This document shows, piece after piece, positions 1,003 to 11,187 of a stretch of 11,782 nucleotides of DNA. A program made the translations under genes and the position numbers. Below the pieces are notes generated by a model. That model saw only the letters and a list, made by a program, of their open reading frames with translations, had not been told where the DNA came from and ran no database searches. The DNA comes from Gemmatimonadota bacterium (GTDB taxonomy: Bacteria > GCA-2686955), in the NCBI GenBank assembly GCA_002686955.1, contig NYZA01000040.1, positions 1 through 11,782 on the forward strand. Reading direction: 5' to 3'. Position 1 is the first letter of the stretch; the number at the start of each line of letters is the position of its first letter.

Positions 1003-1734
1003 ATGGATCTGAGACCGACCTCAAAAGAAGAATCGCGCCGGGGAAGTGGATGGCGAGATCTGGCAAGACCGCATGTGATTGAGAGGGAGGGGGATCGTTC
1101 ACCCGCATGGGTCGTGACCTACTCCGACCTCGTTTCCCTGCTCATGGTGTTCTTCATCCTCTTCTTCGCGGTCGACAAGGCGGGGAGGATCAGTGAGCTC
1201 GAGCAGGCGCTCGCCGAGTATCAGGAGCGCCAGAACTTGGTGGAGCGAGAGTTTCAGCCCGGAGAGGTCGTGCTCCGAATCTCCGGCAAGGTGCTCTTCG
1301 ATTCGGGCAAGGCAAGACTCAAGCAGGCGGCCTTCCCAGTGCTCGACGAGGCGTTCCGGATCATTCGTGACAATCTTCTGACCTACGGGCCGGCGACCGT
1401 GCGCGTCGAAGGGCACACCGACAACGTGCCGATCCACACGCTCCAGTTCCCCTCGAACTGGGAGCTCTCGGCCGCCAGGGCCGTCTCGGTGGTTCGCTAC
1501 TACCTCGAGCAGGGCCACTTCAAACCGGGCGACCTGCAGTTGATGGGGTATGGGGAGCACAAGCCGCTCGAATCGAACGATACGCCCGATGGCCGCCAAA
1601 GAAACCGTCGGGTCGAGATCAAGATCGTGCGCGCCAACTTCACCCCAGAGGACGAACGGACTCCCGGCCCCGCCGACCGTCTCTGGCGAAACGAGGACGA
1701 TCTTCCGGTCCAACGAGTCGGAGAGCAGCAGTGA
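1003..1734 (+). CDS. motB: Flagellar motor stator protein MotB (OmpA-type peptidoglycan-binding)
   Basis: MotB pairs with MotA in the stator and anchors it to peptidoglycan. I place the start at the ATG at 1003 (243 residues): an in-frame ATG at 922 lies inside motA and would add 27 residues unlike the family. The Shine-Dalgarno at 1003 is weak, so coupling to motA is likely. After a charged cytoplasmic tail comes one membrane segment (about 35-57) with the ion-binding aspartate D42 in PAWVVTYSDLVSLLM. A short linker leads to the OmpA domain, with VLFDSGKARLK, VEGHTDNVPI (135-144) and NRRVEIKIV near 201-209, the residues that hold diaminopimelate in this family. Whether the motor uses protons or sodium cannot be told. 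The TGA stop overlaps the GTG of the next gene (GTGA). Confidence 0.95.
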   Translation: MDLRPTSKEESRRGSGWRDLARPHVIEREGDRSPAWVVTYSDLVSLLMVFFILFFAVDKAGRISELEQALAEYQERQNLVEREFQPGEVVLRISGKVLFDSGKARLKQAAFPVLDEAFRIIRDNLLTYGPATVRVEGHTDNVPIHTLQFPSNWELSAARAVSVVRYYLEQGHFKPGDLQLMGYGEHKPLESNDTPDGRQRNRRVEIKIVRANFTPEDERTPGPADRLWRNEDDLPVQRVGEQQ

Positions 1735-4700
1735 AGCGCAAACACCTTGTGGGCCGATTCGCGGTCGCGCTGGCGCCCCTCTTCATCTGGGCCGGCGCGG
1801 CGCCGGGCGACGGGCAGTCGGTCTACGACACCGACGATAGTGGAGGGAAGCCGCCCAACATCGTGATTCGAGGACAGTCGGGGGGGGTCTCTTTCGGTTC
1901 GCGTGTGGCGGTCGGGGATGTGACGGGCGACGGAATTGCCGACCTGGTCGCGAGCGCGCCACAGCTGTCGACCATCAACGGTCTTTCAACGGGCGCCGTC
2001 TATGTGATCAAGGGGCGCAGTGGGTTTCCGGACGAGATCGAGATCGACTTCGACGGAAGCGGGACGCACGCGATGTACTCGGGGCGCGAAGCCAGCGATC
2101 AATTGGGGACGTCGCTGCTCATCGCCGACGTGATCTCACCCTCGGGGGACGTGCCGGACGGCGTGCCCGATCTCATCGTGACCGGCACCTCCGCGGCGAC
2201 CCTGCAGGGTCACGTCTGGATCGTGCCCGGGCCGATTGCGGAGACCGGTGGGCCGATCGATATCGATGCGGCGGCCGGTGGAGCAGTGATCGACTACACG
2301 GGAGAGAGCGAGCAGGATCGACTCGGGGCATCGGCCGCGGTCGGTGATTTCGACGGGGACGGTTTCGCCGACCTGGCTCTCGGCGCTCCACGGGTCGAAG
2401 CCGTAGGGCCCGATTCGATTCAGAGCGGCGCGGTGTACGTGCTAAAGAGCCCGCTTGGCCAGGGCAGCTTTGCAATCGACGTTGCCGCTGATGTGACGAT
2501 CCATGGTGGAGAGCAGCTCGAGGACGTGGGCCGTGCACTTGTCGCCGTGGACCTCTCGCTGGGGATCGATGGCATCGATCTGGCGGTCGGCGCTCCCGGC
2601 GCGGGCACGGAGGACGCCGGAGGCGTCTACCTCTTCGACGGGGGATCCGGCAGCCCCTATTTCGAGCTGTCCGGCCAGGTCTTCGACCTGGAGTCCGACA
2701 CGGCAACCGTCTGGATCGAGGGATTCGGCGCCGGACGGCTCTTCGGCGGTGGCCTCGCGGCGGGAGATATCGACGGCGACTCACGGCCCGATCTCTGTGT
2801 CGTGGGGGCGGCGGGCGGCAAGGGCGCCGCGCACGTGTTGCGTGGAACCGGCGCTCCCTGGCCGGCTCGGATCGATCTCGATGAAGGCGGGACGTGGTTG
2901 AGCTTCGACGAGACCGGTCCGACCGATTCAGTGGTCGTCGACCTGGCGATCGGGCAGTTCCATCCCGCCGGACACCCCCTCTTCGGCACTGGGGACGATC
3001 TATTTCTGGGCTCCCCTCTCGGCGCTGGTGGGCAGGGGGCCGCGTACTTCATTCCGGGGCGAGGGAGTTTTGGATCCTCCAAAGTGTCGAGCGCGGCTGT
3101 ATTTCACACCGCGATTCTCGGCACCGAGGGCGCGGAGCACTTGGGGAACCAGAGCGCGATCGGAGACATCGACAACGACGGCCGCCCCGATCTGATCACG
3201 GGCGCTCCCGGTGGAGAAGGGACCGTTCGAATCTTGCTCGGTGGTACCCCCTATACGTGGGGGATGAGCCCGGCTCCCGGCGCGGCCAATGTCCCTCGAA
3301 ACCACGACACGATCGTAAGGATCTACGACGACATAATGAGCGGCGGGTCCAACTCGGTTCTGGACGAGGGGGTTCTGTCCGGGTCGATCGGGTTCACCGT
3401 CAACGGAGTCCCCTTTCCTTCCGAGCTGGTGGAGGTGCGCGAGCCGCTCGACGATCCGGGCCAGAGCCCGTGGAAACTCGAGGCGTTGATCCACTGGCCA
3501 GTAGACTCCGTGGGCCCGGGTGATGTGCTGCAGGTGCGCGTGGACGCCACCGACTTGGGTGGCCACCCGATCATCACCGAGGGTTGGTCCTACACGATCA
3601 CTTCCGACATCGAGTCTCCCTTTGTAAAGCTCGGTTCGACCTATCCGGGCGCCCTGGCCGATACCCTTCCGGACGTTCCACTCGTGACGCCGATTCGGGC
3701 GAGGATTCAAGACAACATCGCCATTGGGGATTCGACCGTGGTCATGACGGTGTCGTTCAAGCGAGTGACGGAGCTCAACCCGGATCCGGACGGATATCGC
3801 GAGACGATAACCGTCGAATTGCCCGACACCTCCGTGATCCAGCTCAGTGACGGACTCGTCGCGATCGACTATTTCACTTATCCCGATTTCTTCTGGACCG
3901 GTCTCGATTCCCTCAACCCCCCTCTGCGAGAGCGCTTCATCCCGAACGACACCGTCACGGTCACGCTCGACGCTGAAGACCACGTCGGCAATCCGTTGCG
4001 CGACCCGCGTGTCTTTAGTTTCATCACGATCATCGACGACGACGAACCACCCTATATCGCCTATCCACCCTTCGACGGCGCGACGAATCCGACGATCGGC
4101 CAGTCCGACGTACGAGAGGATCAGCGAACAGACATACAGATCAACGACGACGCCGCCGGTGTGCGTCTAAAGACCTGGAAGTGGTTCTGCCCCTCTTGCA
4201 CGACGGCTACCCAAGCGGACGCGATTCTAAGCGACGAACAGAAAGACCAGCTTCGGCCGAAGATTCTCAGGATTATTCCTCGCTCTGGCCAGGATCCCGA
4301 CACTGTCAACGTCACGCTGCATGGGACGCTCGGCGAGCGCAGTGAGGGGCCTCCTGTCTGCACCAACGGGAAGAACGGGAGGTCGGAGGCCCCTCACTGC
4401 GCCAAGTGGACCTATTTCCCCAATCCGCAATACCGATTCAACTCCGAGGTGCGCTTCCTCGTGAGTGCACTGGATTGGGCGGGGAATGAGCTGATCGATG
4501 ATGTCTACTTCTTCAACACCGTCGAAGATGTTCAGCCACCTTTCGTGGTGAAGACGATCCCCGCTGACGGAGAGCAGGCGCCGACCTCGGTCAGTGTAGC
4601 CGTCGAGATCGATGACGACATCTCCGGCCTGGCCGACTCCACAGTCGCGCTCTCGTATCAAACCGAGTCGATGGGAGGATTCGCCGATATTCTTCTGGGA

Positions 4701-5663
4701 GACTTGGAGTTTCAGGCCTGCGATCCACCCTGCAACGACGGCAAGAGGATCGTGTGGACGCCCGAAGAGGCGTTCATGGCCGGTCAGGTGACGATGCGTG
4801 TAAGCGCGGCGGATCGGGCGGAAAACCCGATGGTGCCGCCATTCGAATGGACCTTTACCGCGACACCCGACCTGATCCCCCCGGACATCGATATTCTGCT
4901 CTTCGAGCAGGGGCGCCAGGTGGCCGATACCATCTTCACCAGCCCGGATTCACTCGGCCGAGCCCGGTGCGCGGAGATCGACCCGGTCGATGATCAACAT
5001 CCGAACGACGTACCGCGGGATTCGCTCCTTTTCGTCGTCACGATCGAGGAGCCGCGGCTGAGCGATACCGGGATCGATCTGGGTGAGCTTCTGGTTATCC
5101 TCAACCTCTCATCATCGGAGCAGCTGTTGCTGGTTGCCGCGGGCGACGTCGCCGCGGGCGCGGCCAGAGTCGGCACGGTGACGATCGATCCGCACGAAGA
5201 CGCCGAAGGGATTTTGGAAAGCGTCGAGGTCTCGATTCGCACCGACCTCATCACCCTAGGTTTGGGCCGAACGCTTTCCCTAGAGACGGAAGTCGCTGAT
5301 CTCGAAGAGGGACTGCCGGTGCCGAATTACCGGAGTTGCACGCTCTTCTTCACGACGACGCTTTCCGGCCTCATGAACGAGCCGATACCCAGGATCATTA
5401 CGCCTGGCATGGCCGGCGATAACGACGATCTCGTCGTGCAGTTCCCAGGGGGCTCAGCGGGGTCCAATCCCTTGAAGATCTTCAATCGACGCGGCGAGCT
5501 CGTGATATCGATACGGCCCTCAGATCTCAGCGGAGAGGGACGGATCGCGTTTGCCTGGGATGGTAGAGACGAAAGGAGCGAACTGGTGCCCGGCGGCTTG
5601 TACATCTATCAGTACGACTCCGGCGATCAGGTGTTTTCGGGCACCATGGGGGTGGCTCGATGA
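1731..5663 (+). CDS. Large secreted FG-GAP propeller / Ig-repeat protein with FlgD-like C-terminus
   Basis: The 1310-residue product starts with a signal peptide (about 1-24, KRK then a hydrophobic run). Residues about 45-508 form an integrin-alpha-like FG-GAP beta-propeller of about seven blades; calcium-binding loops are clear at about 62 (DVTGDGIAD), 206 (DFDGDGFAD), 346 (DIDGDSRPD) and 479 (DIDNDGRPD), with degenerate ones between. Then come four or five Ig-like modules ending in repeated F.F.T..D..PP linkers near 620, 763, 925 and 1040, with D..GN motifs. Residues about 1221-1310 form an FlgD-type Ig domain (KIFNRRGELV, WDGRD at 1276-1280, PGGLYIYQY), a common C-terminal module of secreted FCB-group proteins. 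Paired cysteines suggest disulfides. The GTG start has GGAGAG five bases upstream and overlaps the motB stop. The next gene, PorV-like, may help export it. A role in adhesion or motility is inference; no enzyme domain is seen. Confidence 0.85.
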   Translation: MKRKHLVGRFAVALAPLFIWAGAAPGDGQSVYDTDDSGGKPPNIVIRGQSGGVSFGSRVAVGDVTGDGIADLVASAPQLSTINGLSTGAVYVIKGRSGFPDEIEIDFDGSGTHAMYSGREASDQLGTSLLIADVISPSGDVPDGVPDLIVTGTSAATLQGHVWIVPGPIAETGGPIDIDAAAGGAVIDYTGESEQDRLGASAAVGDFDGDGFADLALGAPRVEAVGPDSIQSGAVYVLKSPLGQGSFAIDVAADVTIHGGEQLEDVGRALVAVDLSLGIDGIDLAVGAPGAGTEDAGGVYLFDGGSGSPYFELSGQVFDLESDTATVWIEGFGAGRLFGGGLAAGDIDGDSRPDLCVVGAAGGKGAAHVLRGTGAPWPARIDLDEGGTWLSFDETGPTDSVVVDLAIGQFHPAGHPLFGTGDDLFLGSPLGAGGQGAAYFIPGRGSFGSSKVSSAAVFHTAILGTEGAEHLGNQSAIGDIDNDGRPDLITGAPGGEGTVRILLGGTPYTWGMSPAPGAANVPRNHDTIVRIYDDIMSGGSNSVLDEGVLSGSIGFTVNGVPFPSELVEVREPLDDPGQSPWKLEALIHWPVDSVGPGDVLQVRVDATDLGGHPIITEGWSYTITSDIESPFVKLGSTYPGALADTLPDVPLVTPIRARIQDNIAIGDSTVVMTVSFKRVTELNPDPDGYRETITVELPDTSVIQLSDGLVAIDYFTYPDFFWTGLDSLNPPLRERFIPNDTVTVTLDAEDHVGNPLRDPRVFSFITIIDDDEPPYIAYPPFDGATNPTIGQSDVREDQRTDIQINDDAAGVRLKTWKWFCPSCTTATQADAILSDEQKDQLRPKILRIIPRSGQDPDTVNVTLHGTLGERSEGPPVCTNGKNGRSEAPHCAKWTYFPNPQYRFNSEVRFLVSALDWAGNELIDDVYFFNTVEDVQPPFVVKTIPADGEQAPTSVSVAVEIDDDISGLADSTVALSYQTESMGGFADILLGDLEFQACDPPCNDGKRIVWTPEEAFMAGQVTMRVSAADRAENPMVPPFEWTFTATPDLIPPDIDILLFEQGRQVADTIFTSPDSLGRARCAEIDPVDDQHPNDVPRDSLLFVVTIEEPRLSDTGIDLGELLVILNLSSSEQLLLVAAGDVAAGAARVGTVTIDPHEDAEGILESVEVSIRTDLITLGLGRTLSLETEVADLEEGLPVPNYRSCTLFFTTTLSGLMNEPIPRIITPGMAGDNDDLVVQFPGGSAGSNPLKIFNRRGELVISIRPSDLSGEGRIAFAWDGRDERSELVPGGLYIYQYDSGDQVFSGTMGVAR
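4337..4402. repeat. 18-bp perfect inverted repeat inside the FG-GAP/Ig gene
   Basis: The arm GCGCAGTGAGGGGCCTCC (4337-4354) is matched exactly by its reverse complement at 4385-4402, with a 30-base spacer. The spacer holds a near-perfect 9-base tandem repeat (AACGGGAAG then AACGGGAGG). The element encodes a small loop bounded by two cysteines in the third Ig-like module. The mRNA could form a very stable hairpin here. No terminator U-tract follows, and the reading frame continues through it. Confidence 0.85.
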
Positions 5664-7282
5664 GGAGAGTCATAGCGCTTATCGGTTGCGCGCTTCTCGG
5701 TGGCACCGCCCTGGCTTCCTTCGAGATTCCGGGGGGCACCAGGGCCACCGGAATGGCGCAGGCCTTCGGCGGCTTGGCGACCGACGTATCGGCCGCGTAC
5801 TACAACCCGGCCGGTCTGTACCAGCTGAGCCTTGTCGAGCTTTCGACCTCGTACACCCGTCCCTTTCTCGGTGTCGACAATCTCGGCATCAGCGACCAGT
5901 ACTTCGGCATCGCCTACCCCTTTGGGCGTTTCGGTACGCCTGCCATCACGATGGTCACGACCGGCGATGAGATCTACCGAGAGTACGATCTTGCGATCTC
6001 GTACGGCGTGGGGGTCTGGCAGCGCGGCCGTCTCTCCCTCGGGCTGACCGGGCGGCGGCTCAGCAGAGGGTGGTCTTTTTCAGCGCTTCATCGCGACTAC
6101 AGAGATCGCGTCAGAAACGACCCTCTTTTCGTTGATGGCACGAGCCAGACCAATTTCACGCTCGATGCCGGCATTCTGCTCCGTGTCACGGATGCACTGC
6201 GAATAGGAGTCTCGAGCTTCAATCTTCTCGAGCCGAACCTCGCATTCAATCGATCCGACAAAGACCCGGCGGCGCGTCGCCACCGGCTGGGAATCGGCTA
6301 CGAGGGCGGCGGATACCGATTCGATCTGGATGCCGAATACGACAGCCAATCGATCGGCGGATCGACGCCGATTCGTGTTTATGCGGGCGGCGAGGCGGAT
6401 TTCTTCAATCGGCGTCTCCAGGCACGCGGCGGGTTGAGAGACAATGCGACCGGGGATGCGCGATCCACCCACCTCGCCCTCGGGTTCAGCTTCGAGTTTC
6501 TGCGCCGCGAGTGGCACGAACCGGGCTTCGATCTGCTCGACGGCAAGGAGTACACGGTCGTTCGTCGACTTCGTGTTGCTCTCGACACTGCCTGGGAGTA
6601 CGCAACGCCGATCAGCGAGATTTACGATCCCGGCTTCGGGGCTCCGATGGTCGGGCTCACATTTCTTTACGACACCTCCAAGGTCTATCAGAAGTTCATG
6701 AACCGCAGGCAGTTGGAGGAGGCCCTGAAGAAGCGGAAGGAACAGGTCGCCTTCGAAGTTGCGGAGTCGATGACCAAGCACCAGGCCAGCCTGCTCGAGA
6801 GCGAGAAACAGAAGATCGAGGCGTCGCTCCAGGAGAAATACGAGAGTGAACGCAAGCTCTTGGAGAAGGAGATCGAGGAGCGTGCCCAGCTGCAGGCGGA
6901 GAAGGAGTACCTCGAGACCGAAGCGAAGAATCAGGGACTCGAGCAAGAGCTGAACGAACAGGTCCGCCGCCTCGAAGAGGTCATTCGCGACAAGAACGTG
7001 GTCATTCAGCGGAGCACCCGCACCAATGAAGCTCTGCGGCATCTGGTGCAGGCCGTCGGCCACTACTTCGCGGGGGCGTACGACGAGGCGGAGAGCGAAT
7101 GCCTGGTCGCGATCGACATCGCGCCCTATTTGGAGCTCTCGTTTGTTCGACTCGGATCGATCTATGTGAAGCAGGGGCGCGTGGACGAGGCGATCTCCGC
7201 CTGGGAGCGCGCGTTGCAGATCGAGCCCGACAATTCAGAGTTGAGGGAGTGGCTGGAAGCGCTGAAGGCGGGGCACCGATAG
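5660..7282 (+). CDS. PorV/PorQ-like outer-membrane protein with coiled coil and TPR
   Basis: The 540-residue product has a signal peptide (1-19, ending TALA). The start of the mature part carries G.RATGMAQAFGGLATDVSAAYYNPAGL (26-53), the hallmark of the PorV/PorQ/UPF0164 group of outer-membrane barrels, and residues to about 340 alternate in the way expected of beta strands. Next is a long, highly charged coiled coil (about 345-455, rich in Glu, Lys, Gln and Leu), then about two TPR repeats (455-536, with GAYDEAESECLVAIDIAP and GRVDEAISAWERALQIEPDN). PorV in Bacteroidetes is known to carry type IX secretion substrates to the attachment complex. Those proteins normally end with the barrel, so the periplasmic coiled coil and TPR are unusual. 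The ATG overlaps the preceding stop (ATGA), implying a matched pair. A FadL-like transporter is the main alternative for the barrel. Confidence 0.8.
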   Translation: MRRVIALIGCALLGGTALASFEIPGGTRATGMAQAFGGLATDVSAAYYNPAGLYQLSLVELSTSYTRPFLGVDNLGISDQYFGIAYPFGRFGTPAITMVTTGDEIYREYDLAISYGVGVWQRGRLSLGLTGRRLSRGWSFSALHRDYRDRVRNDPLFVDGTSQTNFTLDAGILLRVTDALRIGVSSFNLLEPNLAFNRSDKDPAARRHRLGIGYEGGGYRFDLDAEYDSQSIGGSTPIRVYAGGEADFFNRRLQARGGLRDNATGDARSTHLALGFSFEFLRREWHEPGFDLLDGKEYTVVRRLRVALDTAWEYATPISEIYDPGFGAPMVGLTFLYDTSKVYQKFMNRRQLEEALKKRKEQVAFEVAESMTKHQASLLESEKQKIEASLQEKYESERKLLEKEIEERAQLQAEKEYLETEAKNQGLEQELNEQVRRLEEVIRDKNVVIQRSTRTNEALRHLVQAVGHYFAGAYDEAESECLVAIDIAPYLELSFVRLGSIYVKQGRVDEAISAWERALQIEPDNSELREWLEALKAGHR

Positions 7283-7285
7283 AGC

Positions 7286-8620
7286 ATGGCGGGAGAACGC
7301 GACTACAGGCGAGAGAGAAAGCGCTACCTCGATCGGACCGGGCGGCGCGGCAGCCGTACCCCGGGGTTTGCCGGCGACGCATCTCTCGCTAGGCGCGCGC
7401 CACTGATTCGCAACTTGATCTACGCCGCGGTGGCGGTGGGTTTCGCCGTGGTGGCCGTCGGCATCGCCGTTTCGGTCTGGGACCGGATGCACCCGGAGCC
7501 GGAGTGGGTGGCTGCGCCGAAGACCGACGAGGGGCCTTTCAAGGTTGAGGTTTCCGGTGCGGTGGAATCCCCCGGAGAGTATGACGTCGAGCCGAACACT
7601 CTCGTATACGAACTCTTGGCCGAGGCAAGGGTACGAACGTCGGCGGATCTGACTCTGATCGATGTCAACACCCGTGTGACCGGGCCCGCGCGAATCCACG
7701 TTCCCTTCGTCGAGGCCTCGCCTGACTCCGGCCCCTTCATGGGAATCGGTTTGACGGCGGCGGAACACGAGCGGGGGAAGGTCGAGGATCGGCAGCTGGC
7801 GGAGGAGCTCCGGCGCGCACAGGAGTCGGCTCTGGGCAACGCCCCCCCTCCCGCGCTCGATCTGGACCACGTAAACATCCTCTATCTGGGTGTTCCGAAC
7901 GTTTTCTTCCTGGCCGAGATCCAGTCGAAGCGGCGAAGCATGCACCTGATGAATCTGCCCCTCGACACGCGGGTGGCCTTCCCGAATCGGCGCGGCGCCG
8001 ATCGGCTGCGCGACGCCTACTTGTTGGGTGGTGCCCCGCTCTTGATCAATCAGGTCGAGTACGCGACAGAGATCCCAGTGCACGCGTATCTCATACAGGA
8101 GCGCCTGAGCTTCGAAAAGATGGTCGATCTGCTCGGCGGGATTCCGCTCGATGTCAGCCCCGTCCTCGCAGAGGCCCTTGACATTCCCGAGGGGCGGCAG
8201 GTGCTGAATGGGTGGGAGGCCTATCAGTTCATTCTCTTCTTCCGGGAGACGATCTCGGCCGCCGACTACGTTGCCTCGCAGATGGAGCGAATCCATCGTT
8301 GGGTGGAGTTCGCCCACAGCTTCCACGCCCAGACGAGGGAGCTTTCCTGGTTGAAGATGGTTCGTTTGGTTCGGCACGTGGTCTTCGAGACCGAGACGAA
8401 CCTCAAGCTCTCCGACGCGCTGGGGCTGGCCAAGGCGGTTCGCGGCTCAGAGCAGTGGAACATTGCGCTCGACGTTTTGCCGGGGCAGTGGGTTGAGTAC
8501 AAGGGGGTTCAGTACTGGGAGACTCGGCCGGACGACCTGACCTCGAGGGTGCTTTTCGAAGGTATGGGCGAAGAGGCGTTGATACACGGGATGACGCCGC
8601 CTGCTCTGGGAGCTGAGTAG
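7286..8620 (+). CDS. Membrane-anchored SLBB + LytR-CpsA-Psr (LCP) domain protein, apparently degenerate
   Basis: The 444-residue protein has a basic cytoplasmic tail, one membrane helix (about 43-65) and an outside part. Residues about 84-140 look like an SLBB/beta-grasp domain (VEVSGAVESPGEYDV, then LIDVNTRVTGPARIHVP). Residues about 195-345 follow the LCP fold: VNILYLGV, LPLDTRV (224-230), DRLRDAYLLGG (239-249), LVD/LLGGIPLDV and LNGWEAYQFILFFR (307-320). LCP enzymes transfer polyprenyl-linked glycans to the cell wall or surface. Here the usual PRDT arginine is Leu226, the acidic residues after the first strand are absent, and the AYVRFR arginines do not align cleanly, so it may bind rather than transfer. 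It starts 3 bases after the preceding stop. The family call is good; activity is doubtful. Confidence 0.8.
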   Translation: MAGERDYRRERKRYLDRTGRRGSRTPGFAGDASLARRAPLIRNLIYAAVAVGFAVVAVGIAVSVWDRMHPEPEWVAAPKTDEGPFKVEVSGAVESPGEYDVEPNTLVYELLAEARVRTSADLTLIDVNTRVTGPARIHVPFVEASPDSGPFMGIGLTAAEHERGKVEDRQLAEELRRAQESALGNAPPPALDLDHVNILYLGVPNVFFLAEIQSKRRSMHLMNLPLDTRVAFPNRRGADRLRDAYLLGGAPLLINQVEYATEIPVHAYLIQERLSFEKMVDLLGGIPLDVSPVLAEALDIPEGRQVLNGWEAYQFILFFRETISAADYVASQMERIHRWVEFAHSFHAQTRELSWLKMVRLVRHVVFETETNLKLSDALGLAKAVRGSEQWNIALDVLPGQWVEYKGVQYWETRPDDLTSRVLFEGMGEEALIHGMTPPALGAE

Positions 8621-8636
8621 CGGCGGAGATCGGTTC

Positions 8637-9452
8637 TTGCCTCCTCCTCTCAGGCGTCTCTACGACGCGTGTCTAGGGCTTCTCGTTCTCTCGATCGTGG
8701 TCCGACGCGTGCTTCTCGGGGCCGATCTTTCTCTGGAAGGGGGCGCGGTGATCTTCCAGTGGGCGCTCGTCATGGCGCTCACCTTGATTCATGCCCTCGC
8801 GCGTTCCGGCCCGAGGAATGCGATGCTTCTCGGCCTAACGGCTCTCCTACTCTCGCTGGCTGCGGAGTGGCTTGGCGCATCAGCGGGTTGGATCTTCGGA
8901 TCGTACGAGTACAGCGACCTTCTCGGCTATCGGATCGCGGGGCAGGTTCCGGTCTTCATCCCCCTGGCCTGGTATGTTCTGGCGTATCTGTCGGATGCCA
9001 TGACGGAGATGGCGCTCCCCCGATCGGCGGGGGTTGCCGCGCGCGTCCTTTTCGCGGCCCTTGCATTGACCTCCTGGGACTTTCTCTTCGATCCGATCTG
9101 CGTGGCCTTCGGGGCCTGGAGCTGGGTAGGAGGGGGAGCCTATTTCGGATCGATCCCGATCGGCAATTTCATCGGCTGGTACGGCGTCTCCGCCACGATC
9201 TTCGCGACCTACTACTGGCTTCGCGGTCCCCACCGTGACGAGAGAATGCTGGCCGATGATCCGCTACGATACGCGGCGCCGATCTTCATGCATCTTCTGA
9301 CCGCCGCTCTCCTGGTGGTTTTCGCCCTCGACCTCTGCAGGGCTGGAGAGGCGGTCGTGGGTCTCTTGGTGCTGCTGCCCTACCCGGCTCTGGCGGCCGC
9401 CGGATTCCTGTCGCGTCGCCAGTCCCTCCGGGCGAGAGCGGCTGCGGCGTAG
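8637..9452 (+). CDS. cruF: CruF-type carotenoid biosynthesis protein (DUF422), copy 1
   Basis: This 271-residue integral membrane protein belongs to the Caroten_synth/DUF422 family, whose known members (CruF) add water across the terminal double bond of acyclic carotenoids, for example in bacterioruberin or deinoxanthin synthesis. Family marks are AEWLGASAGWIFGSYEY (76-92), the proline-rich VPVFIPLAWYVLAY (104-117) and SWDFLFDP (146-153), with about six or seven hydrophobic segments. The start is TTG, backed by GGAG eight bases upstream (8625-8628). It begins 16 bases after the LCP gene, so it may be read with the motility series. Its last 24 codons and stop lie antisense to the end of the second CruF gene. 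The substrate is inferred from family only. Confidence 0.85.
   Translation: MPPPLRRLYDACLGLLVLSIVVRRVLLGADLSLEGGAVIFQWALVMALTLIHALARSGPRNAMLLGLTALLLSLAAEWLGASAGWIFGSYEYSDLLGYRIAGQVPVFIPLAWYVLAYLSDAMTEMALPRSAGVAARVLFAALALTSWDFLFDPICVAFGAWSWVGGGAYFGSIPIGNFIGWYGVSATIFATYYWLRGPHRDERMLADDPLRYAAPIFMHLLTAALLVVFALDLCRAGEAVVGLLVLLPYPALAAAGFLSRRQSLRARAAAA
9380..9452. other. Symmetric tail-to-tail overlap of two cruF paralogues
   Basis: These 73 bp encode the last 24 residues plus stop of both CruF proteins, on opposite strands. In each protein the segment begins at Pro248-Tyr249. The CTAC formed by the end of the Pro codon and the Tyr codon reads GTAG on the other strand and supplies the partner's TAG stop (at 9380-9383 and again at 9449-9452). 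By hand count 18 of the 36 base pairs that could be palindromic about the centre (9416) are. Transcripts from both sides would be complementary here. Confidence 0.9.
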
Positions 9453-10195
9453 GGCGCGAGCGCGGCACCGCCGGCAAGCCCCGCGCCTGGAAAACCGAGC
9501 TCTATAGTCGCGGCCACATTGTTGATGGCGGCGACGAAGAGTGCCAATGCGGGAAGATGTCGAAACCAGTGCTCGATGTCGGATCTCCGTAGGGCGTCCC
9601 CGGGACGTGCGAGATATGTCGCCACCGAAGCGACGAGCCACCAACTCGGAGCGTTGGTCGCCGGGATTCCGAATATGGTCGCCGTGGCTTCCGGGCTCCA
9701 CGTCCAGCAGTTGTAAGCAACGGCGATCGGATCGATCATCAGATCCCACGACGCCGCCACCGCGCCGACGGCGGCCGCGTGCCAGAGAGCGGGAAGGGAG
9801 CGTCCGAATGCCAGCCCGGCGCAATCGTCCGCCGCGTAGATCATCAAGACCCAGAACACGGGGATCGCAATCGGGACTTCGCCGGGCAGCATCGGCCCGA
9901 GCCGGTCTGTGTACGCGTACTCTCCGAAGAGCCATCCGCTGCGAACGCCGACGATCTCGGCGGTGTAGGCGACCGCGGCCACCGCGACGCAGAATCGTGT
10001 GAATCCGCGTGCCCCCCGGGTTATGAGGCCATGACGAATTCCGAACGCGACGGCGATCAGCAGATAGGTCGCCCGCACCAAGATCGGCACTTCAAGTCCG
10101 AGGTGGTTGCCGGCGCGAAACGCGGCGAGGAAGGCCACGGAGATCAGCGCGAACGCCACTCCCAGTCGACGGTCCGCGCGGAACCTTGCAGTCAA
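9380..10195 (-). CDS. cruF: CruF-type carotenoid biosynthesis protein (DUF422), copy 2
   Basis: This is a second DUF422 membrane protein, also of 271 residues and clearly a diverged paralogue of the convergent gene. It has AEIVGVRSGWLFGEYAY (79-95), GEVPIAIPVFWVLMIY (105-120) and SWDLMIDPIAVAY (149-161), in the same order and spacing as copy 1. The predicted role is hydration or a related modification of an acyclic carotenoid in the inner membrane. The start is TTG at 10195, with GGAAG eight bases upstream, and it overlaps the UbiA-type gene stop by four bases (TTGA), so the two form a coupled operon. Its tail carries PY at residues 248-249, the same positions as in copy 1. Which copy keeps the CruF activity cannot be told; two ends of one carotenoid could be served by separate enzymes. 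Confidence 0.85.
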   Translation of the reverse strand: MTARFRADRRLGVAFALISVAFLAAFRAGNHLGLEVPILVRATYLLIAVAFGIRHGLITRGARGFTRFCVAVAAVAYTAEIVGVRSGWLFGEYAYTDRLGPMLPGEVPIAIPVFWVLMIYAADDCAGLAFGRSLPALWHAAAVGAVAASWDLMIDPIAVAYNCWTWSPEATATIFGIPATNAPSWWLVASVATYLARPGDALRRSDIEHWFRHLPALALFVAAINNVAATIELGFPGAGLAGGAALAPYAAAALARRDWRRDRNPAAARAG

Positions 10196-11187
10196 ACGAA
10201 CGCTTCCAGCAGGAGGATCAGTTGGAAGAAGACGACTCCCATTCGTGTTCCGAAGCGGATGTGGCGCTCAAAAGCGTCGAAGATCGCCTCTTCGTTTCCA
10301 CTCCTGATAGTCCTCCAGGTAGCCGCCCACGTCGCCAGGAGAACCGCGGCGAAGACGATCGCTCCGGCCAGGTACACGGGCCCGAATAGCCCCGGTAGCG
10401 GACCGATTCCGGTGAAGGGGATCGGTAGCAGGAGTAGATAGCCCGCGTAGTAGAGGAGAACAAAGCGCATCGCCCGGTCTCTTCCCTGGCGGATCGGCAG
10501 GGTGCGAAAACCGGCCTCGATGTCACCCGGCATATCACCGATGCAGACCATGATCTCTCGGCCGATCTCCATGACGAAGATTGCGCATGCCAGAGGCAGG
10601 ATCCCCGAACCAGCGGCGGGGTAGAGCTTGAGCGCTCCCCAGAGCGGGATCGCGCCGACTCCGAAGGCAACGATGGCATGCCCCAGGAGCCCGTGCATTT
10701 TGCCGTGGTCGTTGTAGAAGATCCCGGAGGCCACGATCGCGGCGGTCAGCGCACTCATGACCGGATTCCACTCGAGGCCACCTCCCGGTGCGTGATGGAT
10801 CGACGCCACCGCCACCGCGGCGCACATGAAGACGATCCCGGTCCACTTCGCGCTTTGGTGGCCGATCGCACCCCGGGGAAGGGGCTTGTGGGGACGATTC
10901 ACCCGGTCGGAGGGGTAGTCCGTCACGTCGTTGTGGATCATCAGGCCCGAGCTGAGCAATGCGGCGCCGAGCATGAGCTCACAAAGATCGAAGAGCTCCG
11001 GAGCCGGCCAATCGGCCAGTGGTGGATGACCCAGAAAAACCCGTACGTTGAGCGCACCCACGAGCGCCCCGAAAACCGAGATGAAGATGATCAGGGGGCG
11101 ACCGATCTGGATCCAGGCCCAGGCCTTGTCGGCGGCGGAACCCGGCGGGAAGCGCGTCGGATGGGTTGTCGGGTCTCGGGGTGTCAA
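10192..11187 (-). CDS. UbiA-family prenyltransferase (lycopene elongase-like or DGGGP synthase-like)
   Basis: UbiA enzymes move a prenyl chain from its diphosphate to an acceptor inside the membrane. The 331-residue protein has about eight or nine hydrophobic segments and both metal-binding motifs: NDVTDYPSDRVNRP (86-99, with N86, D87, D90 and D94) and CIGDMPGDIEAGFRTLPI (216-232, with D218 and D222). The coupled CruF gene downstream suggests carotenoid work, as in haloarchaea where the UbiA-type lycopene elongase is next to CruF. However, NRPHKPLP and REI...GD..GD....TLPI also resemble archaeal-type geranylgeranylglyceryl-phosphate geranylgeranyltransferase. The start is TTG at 11187 with GGGA six bases upstream; a later start would be far inside the first membrane region. 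Family is firm, substrate open. Confidence 0.87.
   Translation of the reverse strand: MTPRDPTTHPTRFPPGSAADKAWAWIQIGRPLIIFISVFGALVGALNVRVFLGHPPLADWPAPELFDLCELMLGAALLSSGLMIHNDVTDYPSDRVNRPHKPLPRGAIGHQSAKWTGIVFMCAAVAVASIHHAPGGGLEWNPVMSALTAAIVASGIFYNDHGKMHGLLGHAIVAFGVGAIPLWGALKLYPAAGSGILPLACAIFVMEIGREIMVCIGDMPGDIEAGFRTLPIRQGRDRAMRFVLLYYAGYLLLLPIPFTGIGPLPGLFGPVYLAGAIVFAAVLLATWAATWRTIRSGNEEAIFDAFERHIRFGTRMGVVFFQLILLLEAFV

Follow-up and report, generated by a model that had tools for sequence, protein, structure and literature searches.

Reading-frame geometry in the convergent overlap of two DUF422 genes from a Gemmatimonadota bacterium

Two genes of the DUF422 (PF04240) family, hereafter A and B, converge and overlap at their 3' ends in the window analyzed here, namely positions 1 to 11,782 of contig NYZA01000040.1 of a Gemmatimonadota bacterium. 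Our analyses indicate that the two genes are old paralogues and that their arrangement is very probably an ordinary convergent overlap. The overlap begins at Pro248-Tyr249 in A and in B alike. The preliminary description of the locus, which drew attention to this match, was accurate in its coordinates, strands, protein lengths, Pro-Tyr positions and overlap length, and a recount reproduced the CTAC/GTAG at both ends and the two TAG stops. However, its proposal that the match records an inverted duplication for the most part did not withstand the analysis. No paper reporting an overlapping DUF422 pair was recognized among those listed by our literature searches.

Table 1. Positions of the two DUF422 genes, their overlap and the adjoining prenyltransferase gene in the window
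Feature	Position	Strand	Remarks
Gene A, DUF422/PF04240 (CruF-like) membrane protein	8637..9452	+	271 aa, TTG start, TAG stop; PF04240 120.5 bits
Gene B, DUF422/PF04240 (CruF-like) membrane protein	9380..10195	-	271 aa, TTG start, TAG stop; PF04240 107 bits
UbiA-family prenyltransferase, upstream of B	10192..11187	-	PF01040 101 bits
Tail-to-tail overlap of A and B, 73 bp	9380..9452		Phase 123:213 (position 3 faces 3, position 1 faces 2)
CTAC, last base of A Pro248 plus the Tyr249 codon	9380..9383		Reverse strand GTAG holds the B stop
GTAG with the A stop	9449..9452		CTAC on the reverse strand comprises the last base of B Pro248 and the Tyr249 codon

The length of the overlap is 1 modulo 3, and codon positions 1, 2 and 3 of A face positions 2, 1 and 3 of B. 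In this phase, the strand opposite a TAG or TAA stop reads xxC-TAx or xxT-TAx, respectively. Since TAA and TAG are themselves stops, a TAR stop must face TAC or TAT, a tyrosine codon, and the symmetry of the phase makes the Tyr-to-stop distances equal in both genes. This tyrosine rule follows from the genetic code, independently of any count of examples. All ten stops in the five phase-123:213 overlaps examined face Tyr. The preliminary description was right in tying the stop of each gene to a codon of its partner. These overlaps are the window pair (73 bp), its counterpart in a second genome of the phylum, G001 (52 bp), two DUF422 pairs in the genomes G084 (37 bp) and G451 (55 bp), and L081, an unrelated 40-bp convergent gene pair of the same genome as A and B.

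In A, B and their orthologues in G001, A' and B', the last ~50 codons of each tail contain a single Tyr, so that the TAR stop of the partner had only one position to take. The matching of stop and Tyr, and with it the appearance of exactly homologous overlapping tails, is therefore forced by the geometry together with the single Tyr of each tail. The two-ended match is a product of reading-frame geometry rather than of a preserved mirror-image duplication. An alignment of all four proteins (A, A', B and B') does place the homologous Pro of both tails in register, and the equal tail length is thus slightly more than pure geometry. The equal total length of 271 aa was rejected as a signal, as it hangs on the two TTG starts and the orthologues have 276 (A') and 266 (B') residues. 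The pair provides a clean worked example of how geometry can impose a match at both ends of an overlap between paralogues, and the Tyr-facing caveat covers any palindrome or inverted-duplication claim built on stop positions; beyond this caveat, the overlap of A and B matters little.

The convergent overlap itself is real, moderately long and maintained within a bacterial family: both genes belong to conserved families, have normal 3' ends and are kept in G001, the sole other genome of the phylum compared, which represents a different genus (contig JALXCG010000554.1, deposited as a Gemmatimonadetes MAG). The pair lineage is known from these two genomes of the phylum, a contig scan having yielded only G001 as a further member. 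A' is 52% identical to A, with the N-termini aligned, and B' is 56% identical to B and shares the same 4-bp overlap with the UbiA gene. The order UbiA-B><A is kept, and the 52-bp overlap is also in phase 123:213. In both genomes, the A stop lies opposite the Tyr of the conserved LAPY motif of B. In G001, Ile occupies the position of A Tyr249, and the B' stop faces another, non-homologous Tyr several residues on. The comparison of related convergent pairs, which the preliminary description had suggested, thus recovered the same gene order but a different partner codon for the B stop. The G001 homologues trace the tail match to where the stops fall, an outcome that the preliminary description had named as refuting its reading.

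The same comparison bears on the possibility that one tail is an artefact, A or B having been lengthened by an assembly frameshift or a lost stop. The genome is indeed a fragmented metagenome assembly (270 contigs, 84.5% complete), and errors account for many annotated overlaps longer than 60 bp; the survey in question (PMC2478687) retained 54 of 178 convergent ones of that size as possibly real. However, an independent genome has the same arrangement, and homologous tails outside overlaps extend ~20 residues past the matching motif Pro, compared with 23 in A and B. An artefact is accordingly extremely improbable.

The palindromic character of the overlap was the second argument for an inverted duplication, with its junction in the tail, that would have made the pair and left the overlap as its remnant. 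We confirmed that 18 of the 36 pairs in the 73-bp overlap are palindromic, and this count, together with the alignment of Pro248 in all four proteins, speaks for such an origin. However, CTAC/GTAG at both ends supplies four of these pairs, whose match is imposed by the Tyr codon opposite each TAG. The interior alone gives 14/32, a value equalled or exceeded by 2.9% of all 73-mers in the window and reached in 3.3% of phase-matched coding windows, in 5.2% of those with a GC content of at least 0.68, and, when the tail of A itself was codon-shuffled, in 12% of the shuffles. The interior palindromy is weak (P 0.03-0.12, depending on the null), and the orthologous overlap in G001 has 8 palindromic pairs out of 26. 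No inverted repeat centred on position 9416 was found, and those nearby connect regions of the two genes that are not homologous.

The codon-aligned DNA identity of A and B is 45.7% in the core and 49.1% in the tail, so the tail is not special. Between the genera, the tails of the orthologues A and A' have 43% DNA identity, and A agrees with A' at 36% of third codon positions, near the random expectation of ~31% calculated for the A/B columns. With third positions near saturation and orthologous tails at 43%, signal predating the genus split would be largely gone, and since A and B separated ahead of that split, the 49% self-match is unreadable as a fossil of duplication. The palindrome was therefore rejected as such a fossil, given its forced ends, its weak interior, the 8/26 pairs in G001 and the old divergence. 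Its excess would instead reflect the forced ends plus the shared Ala/Arg-rich, GC-rich composition.

A maximum-likelihood tree of 39 rows groups A with A' and B with B' (support 100/99 each), and on this tree the divergence of A and B is evidently older than the genus split. A recent duplication, in which A and B of the window would group together, was rejected (lnL difference 127). The four sequences form a clade with support 94/89, which would make the A and B clades nearest relatives, as an inverted duplication would have it, but the data also allow trees that join A or B to another clade (p 0.295 and 0.254). Moreover, a second lineage of convergent overlapping DUF422 pairs, that of G084 and G451 outside the phylum, combines two copies from distant clades (AU p 0.0024), and one of its overlaps is still 13/27 palindromic. 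Convergent DUF422 pairs can thus arise by juxtaposition too, without an inverted duplication. Taking into account that any such event must predate two genera whose orthologues are themselves near saturation at third positions, we regard an inverted duplication as an unlikely origin of the overlap.

Adjacent DUF422 pairs recur elsewhere, with two copies side by side as in A and B (L032 in G259, L034 in G230, L060/L064 in G453, L006/L018 in G084 and L061 in G451). They differ in their arrangement: the G230 and G453 pairs lie on the same strand, those of G084 and G451 are convergent, and the G259 pair is fused in one 576-aa frame. As judged from these gene arrangements, two DUF422 enzymes may often work together, whatever their orientation.

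The overlap was also placed against a baseline, for which a simple home-made codon-usage gene caller was applied to 296 kb (the window and 20 other stretches), or ~7% of the genome. It called 29 convergent pairs, of which 14 overlap, by 6, 8, 9, 12, 14, 14, 17, 23, 24, 38, 39, 40, 62 and 73 bp. The overlap of A and B is the longest, and phase 123:213 was found in 1 of the 13 others, two points that count against the ordinary reading. In a survey of 58 prokaryotes (Lillo and Krakauer-type statistics), this phase accounts for 18% of convergent overlaps of at least 5 bp, and stop-codon mutation is named as the main source of convergent overlaps (PMC2174442). The pair resembles other prokaryotic overlaps of this phase in having both stops inside the partner's coding sequence and a length of 1 modulo 3. 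While its 73 bp are long for the kind, antisense stops in this phase have a density of 0.0256 per codon (67% TAR), and against the corresponding mean run of 39 codons a read-through of 24 codons is not long. The homology of A and B to each other also sets the pair apart, but is incidental to the geometry.

An ordinary overlap of this kind would have formed upon the loss of a stop, or once the two genes had come to adjoin, with both reading frames then running on into the partner as far as the first stop they met. Stops in the relevant frame of this GC-rich genome are sparse and would mostly lie opposite Tyr. The A stop would have become fixed opposite the Tyr of LAPY, while the B end would have drifted, leaving 52 bp in one genus and 73 bp in the other.

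Another possibility would be that mutual regulation of the convergent transcripts, by antisense RNA or by collision, has preserved the overlap, thereby coupling UbiA-B to A. The convergent overlap is retained in two genera, and no intrinsic-terminator-like site was found in 8600-10300, which makes read-through conceivable. However, the overlap RNA folds no better than shuffled sequences (z 0.27 and 0.99), the overlap sequence is poorly conserved, and overlaps are common in this genome, making mutual regulation quite improbable. Nor do the folding result and the lack of a terminator-like site in the same interval support a hairpin or a bidirectional terminator within the overlap. We consider very doubtful the combined scenario of an old inverted duplication whose overlap has since been kept by the Tyr-locked stops and by convergent RNAs balancing two paralogous enzymes of the same pathway.

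With respect to the proteins themselves, A and B both score well above the PF04240 (Caroten_synth superfamily) gathering cut-off of 25 bits, and they were the only PF04240 matches found in the genome (84.5% complete, 270 contigs). Their cores share 32% protein identity, and the two are distantly related paralogues. The preliminary description had called them cruF paralogues; the paralogy holds, but both miss the CruF equivalog cut-offs of TIGR03460 (92-93 versus 154.7 bits), NF041333 (58-78 versus 300) and NF045693 (48-87 versus 400). Judging by these profile scores, 'cruF' reads as a mere family label for A and B. The TTG start of B shares 4 bp with the UbiA stop, and the two genes apparently form one operon. 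In bacterioruberin gene sets, cruF adjoins lycopene elongase, and the position of B next to a UbiA prenyltransferase gene resembles this context of the CruF carotenoid hydratases. On the other hand, the SQS_PSY proteins found in this genome are of the squalene-type HpnC/HpnD only, and no crtI-family match above the cut-off was found in the 84.5% complete genome. The DUF422 pair and UbiA may act on a non-carotenoid isoprenoid, or phytoene genes may lie in the missing 15%.

The genome's only two SQS_PSY proteins found, encoded at L092 13-3274 (G000:C8), pass the HpnC and HpnD cut-offs, and their genes adjoin HpnE, as in the squalene route. While UbiA-B is kept between the two genera, the upstream neighbour of A differs: it encodes a LytR-CpsA-Psr protein in the window (7286-8620) and, upstream of A' in G001 (L052 4327-5004), a DedA/VTT-like membrane protein recognized by eye. 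Further upstream in the window, 1731-7282 encodes a 1310-aa FG-GAP protein, whose C-terminus weakly resembles the CHU_C type, and after it a PorV/PorP-like protein with TPR, a hint of a possible type IX-like secretion cargo and its partner.
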